Shown here one piece after another: positions 4,744 to 27,856 of a stretch of DNA of 64,000 bases (its first letter is position 1; each line of letters starts with the position of its first letter). The stretch spans positions 620,001 through 684,000 of the forward strand of contig NZ_RCDI01000003.1 in assembly GCF_003675875.1 (NCBI RefSeq), read 5' to 3'. The DNA is from Halostella limicola (GTDB taxonomy: Archaea > Halobacteriota > Halobacteria > Halobacteriales > Natronoarchaeaceae). The position numbers and the translations under genes are program-made. Below the pieces are notes generated by a model, which was not told the DNA's origin, searched no databases, and saw only the letters and a list, made by a program, of their open reading frames with translations.

Positions 4744-5735
4744 GCTTTCACCTCCTTGGCGGACGCGGCGTCCGCGAGCGCCTGCAGTTTCTGTTCGAAC
4801 TCGGAGTACGGCAGGTAGAACAGCTCCGTGTTCGCCGTCAGGTACGCCTTCTCGAAGTCGGCGCCGGGGGTCTGCTCGTTCACCCACTCGACGCGCTCGC
4901 GGATGGCGTCTGCCTCCTCCATCAGCGTGTTCTGGCCGTTCACGAGACCGAGCGCCACGTCGTCGGTCGCGCCGTACTCGTTGATGTTGTACAGGTTGTC
5001 CTCCTGGTTCGCGACGAAGTCGAAGCCGACGGCGTCGATATCGGCGTCCAGCAGGTGCGCGTACACCTTCTCGCCGAGCGCGCCCCAGTAGGTGTGGGCG
5101 ACGACGTCGGCGTCGACGGCGTTCGCCACGGCGTCGATGGCCTCGCTGGCGCGCTCGTCGACGCCGTCCTCGGGCGCGTTCTCGACGAGCGACGGCTCCA
5201 GCAGGAACAGCGTCTCGACGTCCGGGAACGCCTCGGCCTCGCCGGCGAGGAACTCGGCGACGGCGTCGAGGAACTCGGCCTCGTCGCCGTAGTGCTCGTC
5301 CGTCGCGAGGTCGGAAAGCGAGTACGGACCCGGGAGCACCGCCTGCAGGGAGTCGGTCTCCTCCGCGGCGGCCTCCAGTTCCGCGGCCACGTCGCCGTCG
5401 AACGTCAGGTCGCCCGTGACGACGGGGTCGCGGTAGAAGTTGTTGTTGTCGTAGTAGCGGACGATGCCGCGGGTCTCCACGTTGTCGTGGACCGCGAGCG
5501 GGTGCGCGAGCATGTCGTCCCAGCGCAGTTGCCCCTCGCCGATCAGGTCGAGGCCGGCGTCCCGCTGGAGTTGAACGACCTCCGCGCGCGCCTCCTCGTA
5601 CGTCTCGTTTATCTCCTCGCCCTCGTCGCCGCTGATGAGGTCGTGCTTCTGGTGGCCCTTCAGGTCGGAGAGCCTGTCTTTCGCCCAGTCCGGGAGCGGG
5701 AACAGCCCCGGGGACGTCGCTACGAGTTCCGTCAT
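4740..5735 (-). CDS. MetE-related methyltransferase, N-terminal-type partner
   Basis: A 331-residue UROD/MetE-superfamily protein and first gene of the two-gene methionine operon. Features are SPGLFPLPDW at the start, a VVQLQRDAGLDLIGEGQLRWDDM block, VLPGPYSLSDLA, LFLLEPSLV and a final FYLPYSEFEQKLQAL. The HxC/C zinc ligands seen in the partner are not conserved here (AHTYWG replaces LHVCYG), so it may be the folate/methyl-donor-binding or structural half rather than the homocysteine-binding half. A TATA box at 5762-5771 gives a leaderless start at 5735. Haloarchaeal genomes commonly carry this pair. Confidence 0.8.
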   Translation of the reverse strand: MTELVATSPGLFPLPDWAKDRLSDLKGHQKHDLISGDEGEEINETYEEARAEVVQLQRDAGLDLIGEGQLRWDDMLAHPLAVHDNVETRGIVRYYDNNNFYRDPVVTGDLTFDGDVAAELEAAAEETDSLQAVLPGPYSLSDLATDEHYGDEAEFLDAVAEFLAGEAEAFPDVETLFLLEPSLVENAPEDGVDERASEAIDAVANAVDADVVAHTYWGALGEKVYAHLLDADIDAVGFDFVANQEDNLYNINEYGATDDVALGLVNGQNTLMEEADAIRERVEWVNEQTPGADFEKAYLTANTELFYLPYSEFEQKLQALADAASAKEVKA

Positions 5736-5761
5736 TGGTACCCGACCCTACGAAATGACGC

Positions 5762-5771
5762 TGTTTAATAT
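5762..5771 (-). promoter_or_regulatory. TATA box of the methionine synthase operon
   Basis: The minus strand reads AATATTAAAC about 30 bases before the ATG at 5735, indicating a leaderless mRNA for the two-gene operon. Confidence 0.6.
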
Positions 5772-5863
5772 TTCCTATTCCTGTAAATGCGCCACAGTTA
5801 TGACAACGGTTCGCACGACCGGCGTCGTCCCCGGATCGGCGCGAAAACGAGTTCGACCGCCGT

Positions 5864-6460
5864 TCACTCGCGCGTCAGCGCCAGCACCGACAGCGTCTCG
5901 AACGGGTACGACTCCTCGACGACCGTCTCCGCGGCGAACCCGCGGTCGTTCGCCCGCGCGATCACCTCGTCGTACCCGGTGAGCGTGCTCACCAGCAGGA
6001 GGACGACGCCGCCGGGAGCCACCACCCGACCGACGGCGTCGACGAACGGGTCGACGACGGCCCGCCCCGTCTCGCCGCCCGACAGCGCCACCTCCATCCA
6101 GTCGTCGCGCTCGGCCGCCTCGTTCTCCGGGAGGTACGGCGGGTTGAACAGCACTGCGTCGAACGCGCCGTCGCGGAACGGCGCGACGAGGTCCGCCCGG
6201 ACCACGTCCACGTCGACGCCCTCGTTCGCGGCGCGCTCCCGGGCCTGCCGACAGGCGTGGGGGTTGAGGTCCGCGGCGACCACGTCCGCGCCGGTCTCGT
6301 CGGCCGCCGCGACGGCGACGTAGCCCGACCCCGTGCCGACCTCCAGGACGCGCTCGTCGCCGTCGAGGCGCTCGACGGCGGCCGTCGCGAGCAAGTGGGA
6401 GTCCTCCGCCGGCTGGTACACCTCGGTCTCGATCCCGCGGCGGTCGGCGAGGTCCGTCAC
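5864..6460 (-). CDS. HemK2/Mtq2-like class I methyltransferase
   Basis: A 198-residue SAM-dependent methyltransferase of the HemK/Mtq2 family, which methylates the Gln of the GGQ motif in release factors (archaeal aRF1). The N-terminus has VYQPAEDSHLLA, the typical entry loop. VLEVGTGSGYVAV (residues 38-50) is the SAM site and FNPPYLPE (105-112) is the NPPY catalytic motif for planar nitrogen methylation. The GTG at 6460 overlaps the mscS stop (GTGA), so it is translated as the last gene of the L21e-ksgA-mscS string. Bacterial-type PrmC would have an extra N-terminal helical domain, which is absent here. Confidence 0.85.
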   Translation of the reverse strand: MTDLADRRGIETEVYQPAEDSHLLATAAVERLDGDERVLEVGTGSGYVAVAAADETGADVVAADLNPHACRQARERAANEGVDVDVVRADLVAPFRDGAFDAVLFNPPYLPENEAAERDDWMEVALSGGETGRAVVDPFVDAVGRVVAPGGVVLLLVSTLTGYDEVIARANDRGFAAETVVEESYPFETLSVLALTRE

Positions 6461-7587
6461 TCTTCGCCCCCGTCCGGGGCCGTCGCCGTCGCCTCGCGGC
6501 GCTCGGCCATCCGGAACCCGCCGGTTTCCTCCCGCCCGGTGAGTTCGCGCTGCGGGAACGGGATCTTGATCCCCTCGTCCTCGAACGCGGTCTTGACGGC
6601 TTGGATGACCGACGTCCGCGCGCGCCACTTCCGCCGGGCGCTCGGGTTGTCGATCCAGAACCGAAGCCCGAGCAGCACCGAGGAGTCGTCGAACTCCTTG
6701 ACCACGACCTGCGGCGTCGGCACGGTGAGGATGTCGTCGACCTCGCCCATCGCCGCCTTCGCGACCTCCGAGGCGCGCTCCACGTCGGCGTCGTAGTCGA
6801 CGCCCACGTCCACCTCGATCCGGAGGCGGCCCTTCCGCGTGCGGTTGATGATCGTGTTCCCCGAGACGACGTCGTTGGGGATCATCACGTACTCCCCGTT
6901 GAACGTCTGGATGCGCGTGTTGACGATGGTGATGTCCGTGACGATCCCCTCCTCGTCCCCGATCTCGACCCAGTCGCCGATCTCGAACGGCCGGGCGAAC
7001 ATGAGGACGAACCCGGCGAGCATCGACCCGAGCGTCTGCCGGGCGGCCATACCGACGATGATGCCGAGGAACCCGGCCCCGACCAGCAGGCCGGAGAGGT
7101 TGAAGTTCCACACGCCGAGCACGACGATGATCCCGAGCGACCAGAGGACGACCTGCGTCAGTCGGAGCGTGATCTCCCGCTGGTGCTCGGAGACGGCGTG
7201 GCTGGAGTCCTGTAGCTCCGACAGCAGGCCCTTGGCGAACCGGACCAGGATGTGCGTTCCCACGAGCACGACCAGCGTGAACGCCGCGTTCGGGACCGCG
7301 TTGCTGCTCACGTTCAGCCGAGCGAACACCTCCCCGACCAGGTCCGCCTGCCCCCAGACCCCGACGCTCACCAGCGCGGCGGCGACGAACCCGACCACGA
7401 ACCCCAGCGTGGTGAGGGCGTCGGCGTAGATCGGCTTGATCCACTTGGTCAGCACCCCCTTCGTGTACCGCGACAGGCTGGCCGTCGTGACGACGAAGAG
7501 GAGACAGAGGAGCGTGACGGCTGTTCGCGCCCCGAGCGACTGGAAGACGTTCGATAGCTCGTTGACGGTCTGTACGACGCTAGCCAT
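6457..7587 (-). CDS. mscS: MscS-family mechanosensitive channel
   Basis: A 376-residue small-conductance mechanosensitive channel homologue. There are four hydrophobic segments in the first half. The MscS pore/beta block follows (GAGFLGIIVGMAARQTLGSMLAG, then FEIGDWVEIGDEEGIVTDITIVNTRI, then YVMIPNDVVSGNTIINRTR). The C-terminal alpha/beta cage ends in FPQRELTG. The role is probably osmotic-shock relief, a family inference. It overlaps ksgA by 8 bases upstream and the HemK-like gene by 4 bases downstream. Confidence 0.92.
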   Translation of the reverse strand: MASVVQTVNELSNVFQSLGARTAVTLLCLLFVVTTASLSRYTKGVLTKWIKPIYADALTTLGFVVGFVAAALVSVGVWGQADLVGEVFARLNVSSNAVPNAAFTLVVLVGTHILVRFAKGLLSELQDSSHAVSEHQREITLRLTQVVLWSLGIIVVLGVWNFNLSGLLVGAGFLGIIVGMAARQTLGSMLAGFVLMFARPFEIGDWVEIGDEEGIVTDITIVNTRIQTFNGEYVMIPNDVVSGNTIINRTRKGRLRIEVDVGVDYDADVERASEVAKAAMGEVDDILTVPTPQVVVKEFDDSSVLLGLRFWIDNPSARRKWRARTSVIQAVKTAFEDEGIKIPFPQRELTGREETGGFRMAERREATATAPDGGEE

Positions 7588-8422
7588 CGCCGTCCTCCAG
7601 CCCGACGTCCGCGGCGAGCGTCGCCAGCGCGGCGAACTCCGCCGGCGTGACGTTGCCCGCCCGCATGCTCATCAGTTCCTCGCCCGCCGCCTCGACGACG
7701 GCGTCGGGGTCGTCCAGCCCGGAGATGTGCGCCGTGTTCCGGACGGCGTTGCGCATCGTCTTCCGCCGCTGGGTGAACACTGCCTTCACGAACCGCAAGA
7801 AGAAGTCCGCGTCGTCGACCTCGTAGTCCGGGTCCCGCGGCGTCGTCCGGACGACCGCGCTCTCGACGTCCGGCGGCGGCGAGAACGCTTCCTTCGGCAC
7901 CGGTTCGACGACCTCGACGTCCGCGTAGTGCTGGGCGGACACCGACAGCCGGCCGTAGTCGTCGCTGCCGGGGGCCGCCGCCATCCGCTCGGCGAACTCC
8001 TTCTGGAACATCAAAACGAGCGGCTTCCCCTCGGGCAGCAGCCGGAACGCGATCTCGCTGGAGACGCCGTACGGGAGGTTCGACACCGACGCGGTGAACT
8101 CCGGCAGGTCGACCGACAGCGCGTCGCCCTCGATCACCGTCAGCCGCCCCGCATCGATCTCCTCGGCGAACTCCTCGCGCAGGAACTCGACGAGGCCGGG
8201 GTCGCGCTCCACCGCCGTGACGGTCTCGGCGACGCCTAACAGCCGGTCGGTCAGCGCGCCGGTCCCCGGGCCGATCTCCAAGACGTGTCCCGTATCGGCG
8301 CCCGCGTCGGTCGCGTACGACGGGAGCCGGTCGAGCACGCGGTCGTCGACCAGGAAGTGCTGGTCGCGGTCGGGGTTCCCCCTGACGCCGGCGCGGGCCA
8401 GCAGGCCGTCTGGGTCTCTCAT
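7580..8422 (-). CDS. ksgA: 16S rRNA dimethyladenosine transferase KsgA/RsmA
   Basis: A 280-residue enzyme that dimethylates the two adjacent adenines of helix 45 in 16S rRNA. Motifs: NPDRDQHFLVDD near the N-terminus, VLEIGPGTGALTDRLL (SAM motif I), VIEGDALSVDLPEF, and SNLPYGVSSEI (motif IV NLPY). The C-terminal part carries FTQRRKTMRNAVRN, the RNA-contacting helix. A TATA box (GGTTTTAAACC type) at 8448-8456 gives a near-leaderless start at 8422, so it has its own promoter as well as possible read-through from DUF655. Confidence 0.95.
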   Translation of the reverse strand: MRDPDGLLARAGVRGNPDRDQHFLVDDRVLDRLPSYATDAGADTGHVLEIGPGTGALTDRLLGVAETVTAVERDPGLVEFLREEFAEEIDAGRLTVIEGDALSVDLPEFTASVSNLPYGVSSEIAFRLLPEGKPLVLMFQKEFAERMAAAPGSDDYGRLSVSAQHYADVEVVEPVPKEAFSPPPDVESAVVRTTPRDPDYEVDDADFFLRFVKAVFTQRRKTMRNAVRNTAHISGLDDPDAVVEAAGEELMSMRAGNVTPAEFAALATLAADVGLEDGDG

Positions 8423-8447
8423 TCGGTTATCGCCCGGTAAGCAACGG

Positions 8448-8456
8448 ACGGTTTAA
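8448..8456 (-). promoter_or_regulatory. Internal TATA box before ksgA
   Basis: The minus strand reads GGTTTTAAACC about 30 bases before the ksgA ATG. Confidence 0.5.
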
Positions 8457-8508
8457 AACCCACCGGCCTGCGTTTGCCCGTCCGCACGCCGCGGCGCTTC
8501 GCGGATCC

Positions 8509-9099
8509 TTACTCCGCTCGCTCCTCGCGGCCGGCGAACGCGCGGTACTTCAGGTCGTCGTCCCGGATCTCCTCGAGGATGCGCTCGGTGAGCACGCCTT
8601 TCGGGTCGTGCAGTCCCGAGATGCGGTCCTCCAGGTCCTCGAAGCTCTCGAACCTCCCCCGCTTTCGCTCGTCTAACACGTTGTTGCGGAGCTTCTTCCC
8701 GATCCCCGGCAGCAGGTTGAGCTGGTGGAGACGGAGGGTGATCGGCTGGGCGTCGTTGTAGAAGTCGACGAACCGCTCCTCGTTCTCGGTGACGATGTCC
8801 TCGATGACGTACTCCAGTTCGGACTGCGCGCCGCCGGAGAGGTCCTCGTACTCGATCGTTCGGACGCGGTCGATCTCTTCGCGCTCCTCCCGGGGTTCGA
8901 CGACGACGCGGTCGCCGATGCTCGCGTCCGCGTCCTCCTCGAAGACGATCTCGAACAGTCGGAAGTCCGACTCGCCGACGGCGTAGGCAAGCGGCGGCTT
9001 CTGGTACTGCGGACGGTCGTCGTCGGCCCGGCCGTGCGGCAGGTAATCGAGCAACACCGCGTGACGGGGGCGGGAACCGTCGCTGTCGGAGTCGGTCAT
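8509..9099 (-). CDS. DUF655 family protein (helix-hairpin-helix, OB-like)
   Basis: A 196-residue protein of the archaeal DUF655 family. The N-terminal half is beta-rich (HAVLLDYLPHGRADD, IGDRVVVEPREER). The C-terminal half has a helix-hairpin-helix segment (LHQLNLLPGIGKKLRNNVL) that suggests nucleic-acid binding. It lies in the conserved archaeal order L21e-rpoF-DUF655-ksgA, which hints at RNA processing or ribosome work, but the biochemical role is not established as far as I know. It has its own TATA-like box near 9127-9134. Confidence 0.85.
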   Translation of the reverse strand: MTDSDSDGSRPRHAVLLDYLPHGRADDDRPQYQKPPLAYAVGESDFRLFEIVFEEDADASIGDRVVVEPREEREEIDRVRTIEYEDLSGGAQSELEYVIEDIVTENEERFVDFYNDAQPITLRLHQLNLLPGIGKKLRNNVLDERKRGRFESFEDLEDRISGLHDPKGVLTERILEEIRDDDLKYRAFAGREERAE

Positions 9100-9156
9100 A
9101 CTGACGTAGGGCTACGGCGACTGGCTACTTAAACAGTCGCCTGCCGAGAACGTTCG

Positions 9157-9513
9157 TCAGACGTACTTCGCCACGACGTTGAGGATGTCGTCGAGTTCGT
9201 CGCCCGACAGCGAGTAGCGCTGCTGGGCGAACACGGCGCGGAGTTCGTCGCGGTCCTGCGGCAGGAGGTCGGCGACCTTGTACGCGGTGGCCTCGTCGAC
9301 CTTCTCCAGTTCGAGCAGTTCCTCGACCAGTTCGCGGGACTCCTCCGGCGTGAGCAGGGCGAACCGGTTGACGTGTTCGATCGCGCGAGCGAGTTCGTAC
9401 CGCATCTCGCGGTCCTCGTCCGCGGCGCGGTCGGCCTCCACCTCGGCGAGCAGTTCCTTCGCCTCCGAGATGGTGAGGTGTTCTTCGTCTAACTTCTCTT
9501 TGAATATCGTCAT
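9157..9513 (-). CDS. rpoF: DNA-directed RNA polymerase subunit F (Rpo4)
   Basis: A 118-residue Rpb4/RpoF family subunit that pairs with Rpo7 to form the RNA polymerase stalk. It shows the family pattern: an N-terminal strand, the helix LTISEAKELLAEVE, and a C-terminal HRDC-like part (ATAYKVADLLPQDRDELRAVF...LDDILNVVAKYV). It begins 4 bases after the L21e stop codon, so the two are in one operon. Archaeal rpoF is classically found directly after rpl21e. Confidence 0.93.
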   Translation of the reverse strand: MTIFKEKLDEEHLTISEAKELLAEVEADRAADEDREMRYELARAIEHVNRFALLTPEESRELVEELLELEKVDEATAYKVADLLPQDRDELRAVFAQQRYSLSGDELDDILNVVAKYV

Positions 9514-9517
9514 CGCT

Positions 9518-9808
9518 CTACTGCTGGGCGCGGAGGTGCTGGGGCGCGACGATGAGCGTCTTCTCCTTGCCGCCGTCGTTGACGGCGACCTTGAAGCACC
9601 GGCCCTGCTTCCCCTCGACTTCGCCGGTCAGGCCGTCGAAGCGGGGGTGGAACCGACCGTCGTTCACGCTCGGGTCGATCTTGAGGTGGACCTTCTGGCC
9701 CGTCTCGAATTCCTGAATGGCGCGCTGGGGCGGCGAGGTCCCGCTCTCTCGGGGACTGTTCGAGAGTTTATTGCGAGTTTTCTTTCGGGGTCCGTTGGAG
9801 TTCGGCAT
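9518..9808 (-). CDS. rpl21e: Large ribosomal subunit protein eL21
   Basis: A 96-residue eL21 protein: [15 protein letters not shown] at the start, then [20 protein letters not shown] and [17 protein letters not shown], ending [10 protein letters not shown]. Unlike most proteins here its N-terminus is basic, as expected for an rRNA-binding extension. The ATG at 9808 lies about 30 bases after a TATA box (9837-9845). It leads the cluster rpl21e-rpoF-DUF655-ksgA-mscS-hemK. Confidence 0.95.
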
Positions 9809-9836
9809 AGTCGTGGGCACCTCTTGTCCTCTGACG

Positions 9837-9845
9837 GTTATAAAA
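9837..9845 (-). promoter_or_regulatory. TATA box of the rpl21e operon
   Basis: The minus strand reads CCTTTTATAACC 28-37 bases before the rpl21e ATG. The predicted leader is only a few bases long. Confidence 0.6.
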
Positions 9846-9946
9846 GGTGCGTTCCCGCCTCGTCGCGGACGAACGGCGCCCGTCGACGGCACGCGCGAGA
9901 CGGCGAGAGAGGTAACATTTTCCGCCGCCGGGGCGATACCCGAACC

Positions 9947-11113
9947 ATGTCCGAGGACGACGACTTCCGCTTCGAGACGCGCTCGATCCACGCCGGCCAA
10001 GAACCCGACGAGGAGACGGGGGCGCTGATGACGCCGATCCACGCCAACTCCACCTACGAGCAGGACGCGCCCGGCGAGCACCGCGGGTACGAGTACTCGC
10101 GGACGGGCAACCCCACGCGGACGGATCTCGAGGCGAACCTCGCCAGCCTGGAAAACGGCGAGTACGGCCGCTGTTTCTCCTCGGGGATGGGCTCTATCAA
10201 CACCGTCCTCAACCTCCTCGAAGCCGGCGACCACGTCGTCAGCGGCGAGGACATCTACGGCGGCACCCGCCGCATCTTCGACCAGGTGTACACGCAGTAC
10301 GACGTGGAGTTCACCTACGTCGACATGACCGACCTCGACGCCATCGAGGACGCCTTCCGCGAGGAGACGGAACTCCTCTGGCTGGAGACGCCGACCAACC
10401 CGCTCATGTCCATCGTCGACATCGAGGGCGCGGCCGAGGTCGCCCACGACCACGACGCCCTCTGCGCCATCGACAACACCTTCGCCACGCCGTACCTCCA
10501 GCGGCCGCTCGACCTCGGGGCCGACATCGTCTCCCACTCGCTCACGAAGTACCTCGGCGGCCACTCCGACGTGGTCGGCGGCGCGCTGATAACGAACGAC
10601 GAGGAGCTCGACGAGCGATTCGGCTTCTACCAGAACAGCGTCGGCGCGACGCCCGGGCCGCAGGAGTGCTTCCTCGTCCTCCGCGGCACCAAGACCCTGC
10701 CTGTGCGGATGGATCGGCACTGCGAGAACGCCCGCGAGCTAGCGCAGTGGCTGGACGGCCACGACGACGTCGACCGCGTGTACTACCCCGGACTGGAGTC
10801 TCATCCCGGCCACGACATCGCCGCGGAACAGATGGACGACTTCGGCGGCATGCTCTCGTTCGAACTCGAAGCGAGCCTGGAGGAGGCCGCGGAGTTCGTC
10901 TCGAACACGGAGGTGTTCACGCTAGCGGAGAGCCTCGGCGGCGTCGAGAGCCTCATCGAACAGCCGGCGACGATGACCCACGCCTCCATCCCGCCGGAGG
11001 AGCGCGAGGCCGCAGGGCTCTCCGACGGCCTCATCCGGGCGAGTGTAGGGATCGAGCACGTCGACGACATGAAGGCGGACCTCCAGCAGGCCATGGACGC
11101 GTCGATAGAGTAA
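9947..11113 (+). CDS. Cystathionine gamma-lyase/synthase family PLP enzyme
   Basis: A 388-residue Cys/Met-metabolism PLP-dependent enzyme. Signatures: YSRTGNPTR, the FSSGMGSI block, [23 protein letters not shown], and [17 protein letters not shown], in which Lys201 would hold PLP. The C-terminus has [17 protein letters not shown] and RASVGIEH, typical of the cystathionine gamma-lyase/gamma-synthase/methionine gamma-lyase group. Which reaction it catalyses cannot be decided from these motifs. It is about 5 kb from the MetE pair, consistent with a sulfur-amino-acid role but not linked by operon. Confidence 0.88.
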
Positions 11114-11410
11114 CGAACTGACGGTGGATCGGTCCGCGAGGGGGCGCGCCGTGCACCCGTCTCGGCCGGCCTCGCGGCGAGTCGTTAGGGCACGAGAAAT
11201 CTGGCCGCGATTTCGGTGATAAACCCTCGGCCGGCCACGCGGCTGAGTGAGCCCGCGCGAGCAAACTCGTGAGCGAGGGCGAGTGAGGGGAAGGGGGCGC
11301 TTCGAGCGTGTGCTGACGATCGCCGGTGTCCTCACGAGCGGAGTGAGCGAAGGCCCAGAGCGGCCCCGCCGCTCCGGTGGACGTAGAAAGGGCGACGAAA
11401 CCGCTGTCCT

Positions 11411-22471: not shown

Positions 22472-23077
22472 ATGTCACACCGAAGACACACCGAAACGCG
22501 GGCCGAGACGGGACAGGGGCATCCGACAAGCGCTCGTTCGATCGAGGTCGACGACTCGTCGACCTCGGAGACGAGAGAGGACGAGCTCGCGTGGCCGTTT
22601 CTCTCGCCCGCGATCACCGACTGTTCCGAGTGTCGACGCGGCCGACCGACGACGGTCTCCGGGGGGACGACCGTCCGTCAGGGGGGATCGGCAGACGCCG
22701 TGGGGGGCGACGCCGCGACGACTATCGAGTCCGACACCGGAACGGAATCGGTGCGACTCGAACCGGGCACCGTCGCGGCGCTGTACGCCGCGGTCGGTCC
22801 GGAAGCGGACCTCTTCACCGTTCACGTCCACGCCGATCCGGCCTACACCGTCCGCCTCAGAGGGCCGGACGGCGTCGTGAGCCGGACGATCAGCGCGACC
22901 GGGGGGTCGGGCGACAACGTGGGGGTCGTGACGTGGACGGTCGAAGCGCCGCCGCGGGGGCGGTGGACGGTCGAGGTCCGGGCACCGGCCGACGCTTCGC
23001 GCGAGCGAGTGTCGGTGACGTTCGGTACGCTGGCGGGGGACGGGGCAGTCGTACCATCGCCGGGTCCGAGCGAATAG
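22472..23077 (+). CDS. Hypothetical protein with C-terminal beta-rich domain
   Basis: A 201-residue predicted protein. The first 75 residues are low-complexity Ser/Thr/Arg/Asp sequence with one CxxC pair (SECR region). The remainder (about 85-190) is beta-rich with RLRGPDGVVSRTISATG and APPRGRWTVEVRAPADASRERVSVTFGT, like a pre-peptidase or adhesin-type sandwich. There is no signal peptide, which is odd for such a domain. This acidic frame is preferred over an overlapping Arg-rich frame. A TATA-like CTTTAGTATAAC at 22351-22362 would give a leader of about 85 bases. Confidence 0.45.
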   Translation: MSHRRHTETRAETGQGHPTSARSIEVDDSSTSETREDELAWPFLSPAITDCSECRRGRPTTVSGGTTVRQGGSADAVGGDAATTIESDTGTESVRLEPGTVAALYAAVGPEADLFTVHVHADPAYTVRLRGPDGVVSRTISATGGSGDNVGVVTWTVEAPPRGRWTVEVRAPADASRERVSVTFGTLAGDGAVVPSPGPSE

Positions 23078-23134: not shown

Positions 23135-24439
23135 TCAGAGCGGCGACTGCATCGTCGGCGTCAGCACGTCGTAGGGACCGAGGTCCTCGTCGGACTGCCA
23201 GGCCTGCTCGCCGGGCGTCTCGTGTTCGAGTTCGAGCACGGTCAGCCCCTTGCCGATGTCGCTGCCGAGGGTGTACGTCCGGGGACCGTCGACGGGGAGG
23301 TCCTCGGCCGTCCAGTACGCCGTCCCCTCGGGCGCGAACGCGGCGAGTTCCTCAGGCGCGGTCGGGTCCTCGATGCTGTACGCGCGGATGCCGCCCTCGT
23401 AGAACGAGGCGAACACCTTGTCCTCGCGGACGTCGAAGTTGTGGGAGGTCCGAACGGCGTCAGCGGGGTCGTCTGGCGCAGGAATGTAGCCGATATGTCC
23501 CTCGTAGGGGTTCGAGGGCGTGGAATCCGTCGAGAGATCGCTCGTGTCGAAGACGCGGATGCCGCCGTGATCACCGGGGATGACGGTGTCCTCGAACGGC
23601 CCGGGGAACGTCTCCGCGCCGACGAGCGTATAGTCGCCCGAGGGCGTCGGCTGGACGTAGTGGGCGTTCGTCTTCTCCCCGCCGAGATATCGCTCGTATC
23701 GCTCGGCCGTGTCCTCCGGCTGTTTTCCGGCGTCGTCGGCCGCGCCGAAGTGGGCGACCGCGGTCGGGTCCGTCGGATCGGACACGTCCGCGACGACCAC
23801 GCCGGCGTCCCAGAAGCACATGTACGCCAGGTCGTCCTGCACGTACAGGTCGTGGATTGGGTTGATCCCCGCCTCGGCCATGTCCTCGTGGGCGTCGCGA
23901 AGCATCCACGCGCCGCCGCTGCCACGCTCCTCGCCTTCGAGGCTCACGGGGTTCGCGGGGTCGGAGATGTCGACGATCACCATCCGCGAATGCGTGAAGT
24001 CGTCGTTGATGCAGAGGTACGCGTAGTCCCCCTGCAGGAAGCAGTTGTGGACGCCGCTGGCGGCCTCGTAGAACGACAGTTCTACCGGCGTCGCCGGGTC
24101 GCTCACGTCGTAGAACGTGACGCCGGGCGGGTCGCCGTCGTTTGCCAGCGCCGCCAGGTCGCCGTCGATTTTCACGTCGACGTTGTCCTCGCCCTGCGCG
24201 GTGGCGGTGCCGCCTAGCACCGGCAGCTCGGGGTCGCTCACGTCGACGGTGGCGATGGCCGTGCCGTTCGCGGAGTACGCCCAGTCCCCCTGGACGACCG
24301 CCTCGTGCGTGCCGGCGTCCAGCGCCTCGCCGGCGAGTTCGTACCGCCACTCCGAGGCCACGGCCGTGCCGCTCAGGATGCTGGTTCCGACGATCGATGC
24401 GCCAGTCGCCTTGATGAAGTCGCGTCTGTCGAAGGTCAT
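23135..24439 (-). CDS. Tat-exported LVIVD-repeat beta-propeller protein (second of pair)
   Basis: A 434-residue exported protein. MTFDRRDFIKATGASIVGTSIL is a clear Tat signal. The rest is a series of propeller blades of the LVIVD type, each ending like VTFYDVSDPATPVEL, MVIVDISDPANPVSL, GVVVADVSDPTDPTAVA, IRVFDTSD or IRAYSIEDPTAPEEL. Such propellers bind partner proteins or surface polymers. No enzymatic motif is seen. Its ATG overlaps the stop of the preceding LVIVD gene (ATGA), so it is the last gene of a three-gene operon starting with a subtilisin-like protease. Confidence 0.85.
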   Translation of the reverse strand: MTFDRRDFIKATGASIVGTSILSGTAVASEWRYELAGEALDAGTHEAVVQGDWAYSANGTAIATVDVSDPELPVLGGTATAQGEDNVDVKIDGDLAALANDGDPPGVTFYDVSDPATPVELSFYEAASGVHNCFLQGDYAYLCINDDFTHSRMVIVDISDPANPVSLEGEERGSGGAWMLRDAHEDMAEAGINPIHDLYVQDDLAYMCFWDAGVVVADVSDPTDPTAVAHFGAADDAGKQPEDTAERYERYLGGEKTNAHYVQPTPSGDYTLVGAETFPGPFEDTVIPGDHGGIRVFDTSDLSTDSTPSNPYEGHIGYIPAPDDPADAVRTSHNFDVREDKVFASFYEGGIRAYSIEDPTAPEELAAFAPEGTAYWTAEDLPVDGPRTYTLGSDIGKGLTVLELEHETPGEQAWQSDEDLGPYDVLTPTMQSPL

Positions 24440-26067
24440 GATCCGTCGTGAGTCGCGTCGGTCGGTACGCGGTGCGATTCGTCCTCCCGTGCGTCGGTCA
24501 GTCGCTCCAGCGCGCCGGCCGCGCGGTCGCGGTAGCGGTACAGGAGACCGCCGAGCGCCGCCGCGCCGACCCCGGCGGCCGCCGTCGACAGGTCGCTGTC
24601 CGGCTTGAACCGCATCGCGTACACGCCGGTGTTGACGTCCGAAGCGAACGTGACGCCGTTCTGTGCCACGGCGGCCCAGGTGAACGGCGCGGCGTGGTTC
24701 AGCCCCGTCATCTTCGAGTCCTCGGGCACGTCCGTCGCGGCCTGGAAGTACCCCTTCTCCGCGAGCGACCAGTCGCTCTCGTCGAGTTCGAGGAAGCGAG
24801 TCCCGCCGTGGTAGTGACCGACGTGGACGTAGCCGCCCTCGGTGACCTCGAAGTTGTGCGGGCTGAGCGTGTAGTCGCCGAACGTGACGTTCGACTGCCA
24901 GTCCCAGGTGTCGAGCCGGTCGACGTTGTCTGTCCCGTCGTAGCCGTCGTCGAGCCCGTCCGCGTCGAGCAGATAGAGGTAGCCCGACGAGCCGTCCTCT
25001 TGGCTCGGCGTCTCCTGGCCGGCGACGACGACGCGCTTGCCGTCGACGAACGTCGGCGAGGGCTCGCTGTAGTGGACGCGCTCGGCGGTGTGGTGCCCGA
25101 CAACGGAGAGGTCAGTCGGGTCCGAGGCGTCGAGCGCGAACAGCCCGGCGTCCCAGTAGGAGACGTACGCTACGGCGTGCTCCAGCCGCGGGTCGTCCTG
25201 CACGACGACGTCGTGGATGTACGTCCCGCCGTCGCCGACCACCTCGCCGTCGCCGAAGTCGCCCTCCCGGGTCCAGCGGTTGACCAGCAGGAGCGCGCCG
25301 GTGGCCCGGTCGAACTCGAAGACGTACATCCCGGCCGTCTCGTCGTCGACGTCCTTGATGGCGAACACGTAGTCGGTCCCGCCGATACGGTGGTGCCAGG
25401 CGTTGTGCGGCCCGGTCGTCCACTCGTCGTACCGCCCGACGACCGTCGGGTCGGTCGGGTCGGAGACGTCGACGGCCTCCAGCGCGCTCGCGCCGGCGCT
25501 GGTGTCCGTGTCGTCGTCGGTGCTCGGCGTCGGGTCCGTCTCCTCGAACAGCGCGGTGAGCGGCTGCTTCGAGAGGAAGACGTAGTCCCCGTCGCCGCTG
25601 ACCTTCACGTCCATCACCGCGGCGGCGTCGTTGTCGTTGCGCAGGAACGAGACGACCTCCAGTTCGGCGTCGTCGAGGTCGCTGGCGTTCTCCGCGGCGT
25701 TGAACTCGGAGATGTCCAGTATCGCGAGGCCGCGGTTGTTCGTCGGGTCCTTCGAGGAGAAGACGCTGACGTACGCGTAGTCGCCGCGCGTCCGTATCTC
25801 CGAGAGGCCGCCGTAGTGGGGGTCGGTGGCGCTCCCGCTCTCGCTCGACGGCCCCACGTCGCCGAGGCTGTGGTAGTCAAGCAGTTCGACGTTGCCGGTG
25901 TCGCCGTGGACGCTGGCGTCCGTGTGGTCGTGGTCGCCATCGTCGCTGGTGCTGTCGGTCGACCCCTTGTCATGCGCGCTCCCGACGCCGGCCGAGGCAG
26001 CGAGCGCCGCGGCCGTCGCGCTCACTTTCAGCACGGCGCGGCGGGAGGTGAGGCGACGGTCACTCAT
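24436..26067 (-). CDS. Tat-exported, membrane-anchored LVIVD-repeat protein (first of pair)
   Basis: A 543-residue protein. MSDRRLTSRRAVLKVSATAAALAAS is a Tat signal, followed by a His/Asp-rich linker (HDKG...HDHTDAS). The body consists of LVIVD-type blades such as YVSVFSSKDPTNNRGLAILD, ALEAVDVSDPTDPTVVG, LFALDASDPTDLSVVG and TRFLELDESDWSLAE. Near the C-terminus a hydrophobic stretch (about residues 499-513, AAAGVGAAALGGLLY) followed by basic residues looks like a membrane anchor, which the second LVIVD protein lacks. The ATG lies 8 bases inside the protease gene, so translation is coupled. Confidence 0.85.
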   Translation of the reverse strand: MSDRRLTSRRAVLKVSATAAALAASAGVGSAHDKGSTDSTSDDGDHDHTDASVHGDTGNVELLDYHSLGDVGPSSESGSATDPHYGGLSEIRTRGDYAYVSVFSSKDPTNNRGLAILDISEFNAAENASDLDDAELEVVSFLRNDNDAAAVMDVKVSGDGDYVFLSKQPLTALFEETDPTPSTDDDTDTSAGASALEAVDVSDPTDPTVVGRYDEWTTGPHNAWHHRIGGTDYVFAIKDVDDETAGMYVFEFDRATGALLLVNRWTREGDFGDGEVVGDGGTYIHDVVVQDDPRLEHAVAYVSYWDAGLFALDASDPTDLSVVGHHTAERVHYSEPSPTFVDGKRVVVAGQETPSQEDGSSGYLYLLDADGLDDGYDGTDNVDRLDTWDWQSNVTFGDYTLSPHNFEVTEGGYVHVGHYHGGTRFLELDESDWSLAEKGYFQAATDVPEDSKMTGLNHAAPFTWAAVAQNGVTFASDVNTGVYAMRFKPDSDLSTAAAGVGAAALGGLLYRYRDRAAGALERLTDAREDESHRVPTDATHDGS

Positions 26068-27856
26068 CGACGAGCTTCACCTCGCCGAACGTCGCGAGGT
26101 CGCCGTCTTCGGCGCGCGCCACCGCCTCGTACGCGTCGACGAACCCGGCCCCGATGTTCCACGGGGTGTAGCCGTCGTGGACGTCCTCGGCCTCCGCCTC
26201 GATCGTGTTCAGCACCTCGATCGGGTCCGGCGATTCGCCGACGTTCTGCCGGTAGGCGTCGACGACGAGCGTCGCCACGCCGGCGGTGACTGGACACGAC
26301 ATGCTCGTGCCGCTGATGCGGCCGTACCACTCCTCGGTGTCCTCGGCGTACGCCTGCAGTGGGTCGGTCGGTTCGAGCGTGCTCATCACGAGGTTGCCGT
26401 TCGCGCCGACGCCGTTGCGGTACAGCCCCATCGGGTGGACGTTGCGGTCGATGCCCTCGTAGGCGGTGAACTCGATACCGTAGTCCGCCGCGACGTTGGC
26501 GAACGGCCGCACCTCGAAGTAGTACGTCGTCCCGCCCTCGATCGGTCCCGACAGCTCCTCGGGGTGGTTCAGGGTCGCGCTGGAGGCAACCACCTCGCCG
26601 TCGGGACTCCCCTCGTGGAGGTAGAAATCGAGGTCCTCGGCGCTCGGGTCCCAGGACAGGGTGGCTTCGACGTAGCCGGCCTTGCTCGGGGCGTCCCACT
26701 CGTGGTACTCGCTCTCGTCGACGGCCACGGTCCCGGAGAACGACCCGGAGCCGATCTCCTCGTCGGTCTTGTCCGCCGCGCGGTACTCGCGGAGGTTATC
26801 GAGCGCCTTCTTGCGCTTGTAGTTCGTCGCGCCGTCGTAGTCCGGGGTGCGCCCGCGCGAGGAGAAGTCCGTCACGGCCTTCTCGTCGTCCGTCGCGGCG
26901 ACGCTCAACACGTTCGGAGCCTTCGCGTAGTCGTTGAGCGTGTTCGGGTCCGGCCCGGCGTTCCCCGCGGAGAACAGCGCGAGGATGCCCTCCTGCGTCG
27001 CGTGCCAGGAAGCGACGTTCAGCGCGTCGTCGGGGTTGAAGTCGTCGCCCGAGGACGTGCCGTAGGAGTTCGACACCACTTGCACGTCAGTCTCGCCGGC
27101 CCGCTTCCGAGCGATCATGTGGTCGAACGCGGCGACGGCGTACAGGATGAAAAGCGCCGCGCCCGCGGAGTACACCGTCAGCGTGGAGTCGGGCGCCATC
27201 CCGCGGTACTCGCCGTCGCTCTGGGTCCCGTCGCCCGAGACGCTCCCGCTGGTGTGGGTGCCGTGGCCGTTGTCGTCGGTGTCGACGTCGCCGACCTCCT
27301 CCCACTGGATGTCGTTCTCCAGCGGGTCGCCGACCCAGCGCCAGTTGGCGGCGAGGGTCCCGTCGAGGTCGGGGTGGTCGCCGTCGACGCCGCTGTCGAT
27401 GACCACCGTATGAACGCTCTCGCCGGTGTAGCCGAGGTCCAATTGCACTTCGTCCGCGCGCGTGTTCTCGCGGGAGTCGTCGTTGTGGTAGTCGAGTTCG
27501 ACGTTCGCCTGGACGTACCGCACGTCCGTCCAGTCGGCGATCGTCTCGATCTGGTTTCCGGTGAGTTCGGCGTACCCGACCGGCAGCACCTCGAACTTGT
27601 GGTAGCCGTTCGCCAGATCGAGATGTCGGAGCCGATCGACGTCGTCGTTCTCGTCAAATACGACGAGTGTCTCCTGCAACGAGTCGTCTGTCGGATCGAG
27701 GGCGTCGTCGACGGTCGTCCCGTGGTCGGCGCGGCCCACGCCCGCGTAGGGGAGTAGCGACGCCGCGCCGGCCGCGCCCGTGGTCCGCAGGATACGCCGT
27801 CGCGAGGCGGTCAGCGGGCCGTCCGTTTCGTCACGATCGTTGGATGGTAATTGCAT
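26060..27856 (-). CDS. Subtilisin-like serine protease (halolysin type), Tat-exported
   Basis: A 598-residue S8 protease. The Tat motif SRRRILRTTGAAGAASLL lies at residues 18-35. A propeptide follows (about 45-120, containing YHKFEVLPVGYAELTG). The catalytic triad is Asp154 (VVIDSGVDGDH), His198 (NGHGTHTSG) and Ser518 (ISGTSMSCP), with Asn299 (SAGNAG) for the oxyanion hole. A beta-rich segment at about 365-467 resembles a PPC (pre-peptidase C-terminal) domain and is inserted between the oxyanion Asn and the catalytic Ser. There is no C-terminal extension after the protease fold. It is first gene of the operon with two LVIVD proteins, with a TATA-like box at 27880-27889. Confidence 0.93.
   Translation of the reverse strand: MQLPSNDRDETDGPLTASRRRILRTTGAAGAASLLPYAGVGRADHGTTVDDALDPTDDSLQETLVVFDENDDVDRLRHLDLANGYHKFEVLPVGYAELTGNQIETIADWTDVRYVQANVELDYHNDDSRENTRADEVQLDLGYTGESVHTVVIDSGVDGDHPDLDGTLAANWRWVGDPLENDIQWEEVGDVDTDDNGHGTHTSGSVSGDGTQSDGEYRGMAPDSTLTVYSAGAALFILYAVAAFDHMIARKRAGETDVQVVSNSYGTSSGDDFNPDDALNVASWHATQEGILALFSAGNAGPDPNTLNDYAKAPNVLSVAATDDEKAVTDFSSRGRTPDYDGATNYKRKKALDNLREYRAADKTDEEIGSGSFSGTVAVDESEYHEWDAPSKAGYVEATLSWDPSAEDLDFYLHEGSPDGEVVASSATLNHPEELSGPIEGGTTYYFEVRPFANVAADYGIEFTAYEGIDRNVHPMGLYRNGVGANGNLVMSTLEPTDPLQAYAEDTEEWYGRISGTSMSCPVTAGVATLVVDAYRQNVGESPDPIEVLNTIEAEAEDVHDGYTPWNIGAGFVDAYEAVARAEDGDLATFGEVKLVDE

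Follow-up and report, generated by a model that had tools for sequence, protein, structure and literature searches.

The LVIVD repeat received its name in 2004 (PMC2447325); in the literature that we searched, we found no activity assigned to it. In Haloferax volcanii, HVO_0405 is a substrate of archaeosortase and has an LVIVD domain at its N-terminus (PMC7157517). Two seven-bladed propeller proteins serve as further points of comparison. SELENBP1 is copper-dependent and has conserved His/Asp/Glu ligands in its central cavity (PMC10362175), and the 2016 structure paper on the haloalkylphosphorus hydrolase and phosphotriesterase Sb-PTE names, in its title, a seven-bladed propeller with a binuclear metal centre. 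A literature search gave no paper joining LVIVD proteins and proteases among the matches listed. Here we describe, from computational analysis, a locus of Halostella limicola in which a subtilase of family S8 is encoded together with two LVIVD propellers, LV1 and LV2.

The window, by which we mean the whole stretch of 64,000 nucleotides that was analysed, contains three overlapping open reading frames on its minus strand in the order S8, LV1, LV2 (Table 1). A sequence-only reading of this DNA had proposed three genes with Tat signals overlapping head to tail by 8 and 4 bases, and both the coordinates and the twin-arginine motifs were confirmed. All three proteins begin with an RR motif followed by a hydrophobic stretch, the pattern that defines Tat substrates, and RR was present in 63 of 63 aligned LVIVD proteins; the Pfam TAT matches on S8 and LV2 were below the cut-off. 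The length of the 8-base overlap between the S8 and LV1 genes was kept in relatives (L093/L212, L213 and L237), and in another archaeon (L213) the order S8-LV1-LV2 was intact and followed by a second LV2 copy, the two copies being 77% and 56% identical to the LV2 of the window. Because the overlap is kept and the gene order recurs, the three genes have not come together by chance. The overlaps also suggest that S8, LV1 and LV2 are translated together. Converging on LV2 from the plus strand is a 201-aa open reading frame (22472-23077), the second half of which looks like a PPC-type beta domain.

Table 1. Features of the S8-LV1-LV2 locus, in window coordinates
Feature	Coordinates	Strand	Description
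S8 subtilase	26060..27856	-	598 aa; signal of RR/Tat type, propeptide-like N-terminal region and catalytic domain
PPC-like beta insert of the S8 catalytic domain	26435..26779	-	about residues 360-474
S8/LV1 overlap	26060..26067	-	8 bases, ATGAGTGA
LV1	24436..26067	-	543 aa; Tat-type exported seven-bladed LVIVD propeller
LV1 His/Asp-rich N-terminal stretch	25894..25974	-	residues 32-58, predicted disordered
LV1 weak Ala/Gly-rich hydrophobic C-terminal segment	24508..24597	-	about residues 491-520; possible membrane anchor
LV1/LV2 overlap	24436..24439	-	4 bases, ATGA
LV2	23135..24439	-	434 aa; Tat-type exported seven-bladed LVIVD propeller, without anchor

The earlier identification of one S8 protease and two LVIVD propellers was borne out by Pfam. 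The protease scored 109.5 bits against PF00082 (cut-off 21.8) and has the Asp/His/Ser triad of Peptidase S8, with all catalytic residues present (D154, H198, N299 and S518), and it looks like an active endoprotease. The PPC-like insert lies between the regions of the catalytic Asn and Ser, and short S8 relatives of about 487 aa show a gap at residues 360-474, i.e. they do not have the insert; its assignment as PPC was made by inspection, with no Pfam match to the window protein in this region. Of 293 genomes of the order, 50 had relatives of the window S8 type. In one locus (L117:9013-11301, plus strand), a single open frame encodes both an S8 protease and, at residues 614-745, a dCTP deaminase-like domain; this is either a fusion or a sequencing artefact.

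LV1 and LV2 scored 40.6 and 57.5 bits, respectively, against PF08309 (gathering cut-off 20.2). Neither reached the 100-bit threshold of the Choice-of-anchor B family (TIGR04312), for which LV2 scored 46.9 bits and LV1 gave no match. The predicted structure of LV2 (mean pLDDT 85.0) has seven four-stranded blades, the LV1 model (mean pLDDT 75.8) has a similar seven-bladed architecture, and the profiles of the two proteins align across the whole propeller. LV1 forms a separate subfamily, found in 22 of the same 293 genomes and thus rarer than LV2-like proteins, which were found in 196. The His/Asp-rich stretch of LV1 had been read as a linker, but it directly follows the signal and precedes the propeller, and so does not connect propeller and anchor; H32 is conserved in 18 of 21 sequences. 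The membrane anchor that had been proposed for LV1 can be kept only as a candidate. A weak hydrophobic segment is indeed present near the C-terminus, but its best 19-residue hydropathy is 1.2, the helix predicted at 501-530 has a pLDDT of about 35-45, and an equivalent is lacking in about half of the relatives.

The S8 type and LV1 were counted in the same 293 genomes. The window S8 type was present in 21 of the 22 genomes with LV1, compared to 3.8 expected (hypergeometric p about 2e-17, a statistic that ignores phylogeny). With S8 genes taken from the Pfam lists of these genomes, 13 of the 22 LV1 genes had a same-strand S8 gene no more than 6 kb away, compared to about 0.3 expected at an assumed density of about ten S8 genes in 4 Mb and a reach of 5 kb. 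These adjacency counts also ignore phylogeny, and we therefore give the spread instead: the 13 linked LV1 genes came from eight genera and six families, with varying gene orders (reversed in G050). In a second collection of 33 LV1 loci, from organisms that partly belong to the first sample and include Haladaptatus, Halomarina, Natronococcus, Natronomonas, Halorarius and Haloglomus, 16 had a same-strand S8 gene within 5 kb. Among the other LVIVD genes of the same genomes, 4 of the 27 listed had a same-strand S8 gene nearby, and these four were LV2 and relatives sharing 52-76% identity with it. In 20 neighbourhoods of widespread LVIVD genes, no S8 gene was recognised by a profile tuned to the window S8 type. 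The prediction that S8 and LVIVD genes are neighbours more often than by chance therefore held. A functional link between the window S8 type and LVIVD proteins is well supported, and both the operon and the link are real and recurrent.

Other arrangements were seen around LV1. Tandem arrays of LV1-type genes with no protease neighbour within the stretch examined were found in four loci (L223:9989-18660, and also L224, L226 and L232). In five loci (L227, L230 and L238 from Natronococcus, and L095 and L102), large PAS/GAF regulators of the BAT/HTH_10 (bacterio-opsin activator) type lay beside LV1/S8, the assignment having been made by Pfam in L230, L095 and L102.

In several relatives the cluster around LV1 is enlarged by a second and larger S8 type, by tandem S8 copies and by an M14 zinc carboxypeptidase (L099, L100, L101, L111 and also L227 from Natronococcus). 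The order is S8-LV1-M14 in L099, with a 4-base overlap of LV1 and M14, and S8-S8-M14-LV1 in L101. An iterated S8 profile had drifted into LVIVD proteins, and in this way a C-terminal domain shared between the long S8, M14 and LV1 proteins was found; the S8 profile used covers the catalytic domain only. The shared domain comprises about 120 residues, has no Pfam family and carries the motif FTGGQTNQVD...RDxxPxxW...YFAEAP...YTFGP (L099, L100, L101, L111 and L192-L206). It occurs in 28 of the 293 genomes. Classified carriers in the neighbourhood loci were S8, M14 or LV1 proteins, and ten further carriers given to Pfam were S15 dipeptidyl-peptidases, M14 carboxypeptidases and purple acid phosphatases, a classification that leaves out a few short, fragmentary or unscanned carriers. 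Among the carriers identified, LV1 is the only one without an assigned enzymatic domain, the others being exported hydrolases. The domain probably marks proteins for a common surface or secretion fate, and it offers a handle on the sorting or retention of extracellular digestive enzymes in haloarchaea. No match to it was found in the window's own genome, where S8, LV1 and LV2 have no such domain, so this evidence concerns the family of LV1 and not the window copy directly. The sequence-only reading had coupled the propellers to the protease as guides of substrate, restraints or targets. The coupling stands on the co-occurrence in 21 of 22 genomes, the clustering and the shared domain, but none of the three roles gained specific support.

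A set of conserved residues was found in register in the LV1 and LV2 profiles, namely E46, D88, H131, H196, H260, E276, H333 and W376 in LV2 and E90, D153, H221, H285, H332, E352, H404 and W464 in LV1. In the models, all of these except E276 and E352 are placed at or next to the start of an innermost strand, mostly one per blade, and E276/E352 comes a little further on than the third histidine. All four histidines, the Asp, the Glu at E276/E352 and the Trp were invariant in 39 LV2-type and 22 LV1-type sequences (61 in two alignments), and the Glu of the first blade was found in 37 of 39 LV2-type sequences (Asp in the other two) and in 21 of 22 LV1-type sequences. The pattern resembles that of a metal site at the channel mouth of a propeller, the proximity of the residues being judged from their position in the strand order of the models. 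Both LV1 and LV2 would thus be candidate metal-binding proteins.

Single-sequence searches of the PDB with LV1 and LV2 gave weak matches only, and profiles were needed to find more distant relatives. The LV2-type profile matched Sb-PTE (5HRM/5IOJ) with E=5e-11, compared to about 0.3 for the next matches, and the C-terminal half of the profile alone gave E=4e-9. A Foldseek search with the LV2 model had 5HRM as its top match (3e-13, compared to 2e-10 for the next), and a VIA-align search listed mostly WD40 propellers at tied Z scores, which carries no information about function. Judged by its profile, LV2 is homologous to Sb-PTE of Sphingobium sp. TCM1. In the alignment, H131 and H333 of LV2 stand opposite His258 and His475 of Sb-PTE, and by inspection H196 faces His317 (5IOJ numbering); the C-terminal-half profile paired this Sb-PTE protein with LV2 in another register, placing a second blade against one and the same histidine, and the repeats thus leave the register ambiguous. 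We take His258, His317 and His475 to be among the metal ligands of Sb-PTE. Significant homology together with the seven-bladed fold, as expected of a propeller hydrolase of the Sb-PTE type, was found for LV2 only. The LV1 profile alone gave no match to Sb-PTE, and the fold matches of the LV1 model were generic propellers, with Sb-PTE absent among the 50 listed, so the connection of LV1 to Sb-PTE runs via LV2. The earlier statement that LVIVD proteins have no known activity holds for the Pfam repeat as named, but LV2 has a characterised enzyme as a sequence relative.

We consider it about an even chance that the operon's products are a co-expressed set of extracellular hydrolases, the propellers being predicted metalloenzymes. 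S8, LV1 and LV2 would be produced together and exported by Tat, S8 would cut proteins outside the cell, LV1 may be weakly held at the membrane and LV2 would be free. At the mouth of the central channel, LV1 and LV2 would each have a metal site of four His with Asp/Glu. They would most likely be metal-dependent hydrolases acting on material that is processed by the same digestion machinery at the surface, perhaps at ester or phosphoester bonds. In relatives the set is enlarged by the second S8 type and the M14 carboxypeptidase. That the propellers are enzymes in their own right is suggested because they have a conserved metal-type site, because of the homology to a binuclear metal hydrolase and because LV1, among the carriers identified, shares its C-terminal domain only with hydrolases. 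We infer both the hydrolase chemistry of the propellers and the physical cooperation of the set.

The metal could be copper. The propellers would then be copper-binding oxidoreductases or copper-handling proteins, and the link to the protease would reflect oxidative or metal processing at the surface, a reading that we regard as unlikely although the gene neighbourhoods give it some basis. Nine of the 22 LV1 genes had no S8 gene nearby, and several of these were near a copper-type ATPase instead. In L103 (6217-8781), a CopA-type ATPase with two HMA domains was identified by Pfam with LV1 directly behind it, and a neighbour of the same length (854 aa) is likewise placed beside LV1 in L104 and L105, the Pfam identification being from L103 only. 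CopA-type genes were found within about 0.6-6 kb in further loci. A CopA-type gene also lies near LV1 in L221, L222 and L228, and in the lineages of these loci, as in those of L103, L104 and L105, LV1 is not beside S8. Triplets of LV2-related LVIVD genes adjoin a multicopper oxidase gene in L129 and L147 (by Pfam) and in L131 (by position); L147 is from the window's own genome (C2:559000-578500), with the oxidase gene followed by three LVIVD genes at 5019-11141. The conserved His directly after the LV1 signal would also fit copper binding, as would the precedent of copper-dependent SELENBP1, a seven-bladed propeller with His/Asp/Glu ligands (PMC10362175). However, the CopA profile used recognised no copper genes in the protease-linked loci, and the LV proteins gave no match to PF05694 (SBP56) at E<=10, their similarity to SBP56 being weak and short compared to the strong similarity to Sb-PTE. 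Tested as the closest relative, SBP56 gave a weak partial match.

Seven-bladed propellers are common interaction platforms. LV1 and LV2 could accordingly be non-catalytic partners of the protease, serving as docking platform, substrate presenter, inhibitor or target. The WD40 chains that fill the VIA-align list are in line with such a role, and a complex would fit the tight gene coupling and the C-terminal domain that LV1 has in common with S8 and M14. We doubt this reading, since the four His, the Asp and the Glu are invariant in all 39 and 22 proteins, many of which have no S8 neighbour, and a pure scaffold is hard to reconcile with such invariance; the homology of LV2 to the enzyme Sb-PTE also stands against it. 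Mere co-expression of exported scavenging proteins under one regulator, with no shared substrate or complex, could explain why BAT/HTH_10 regulators are placed among or next to these genes in several relatives and why some LV1 genes are solitary or in LV1-only arrays, but it is highly improbable given that LV1 nearly always occurs with the window S8 type (21 of 22 genomes) and that members of the set have the C-terminal domain in common.

The reading of the propellers as hydrolases can be extended, more tentatively and at somewhat less than an even chance, to haloarchaeal LVIVD propellers in general. These would be exported metalloenzymes with a four-histidine site of the binuclear type, and LV1 would be the enzyme partner in a so far undescribed system of digestion at the cell surface, with one C-terminal domain shared by its subtilases, carboxypeptidases, dipeptidyl-peptidases and phosphatases. 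The conserved metal-type site, the metallohydrolase homology and the protease context together make LVIVD a testable enzyme family, and LV2-like proteins are present in 196 of the 293 sampled haloarchaeal genomes.

Compared to known systems, the window S8 resembles exported subtilases of family S8 in its Tat-type signal, triad and propeptide-like region, and differs from them in the PPC-like insert inside the catalytic domain and in being of a type regularly accompanied by LV1 genes. LV1 and LV2 belong to the same repeat family (PF08309) as HVO_0405, and LV1 differs from the LVIVD proteins of about 490 aa that are widespread in haloarchaea and had no S8 neighbour in the 20 control loci. SBP56/SELENBP1 methanethiol oxidase is also a seven-bladed propeller with conserved His/Asp/Glu residues, but the LV proteins lack PF05694 and match its profile only briefly and weakly. 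Sb-PTE is bacterial and about 14% identical to LV2, with sequence fragments that fall below the Pfam LVIVD cut-off, but it shares with LV2 the profile homology, the top fold match and the seven-bladed propeller.
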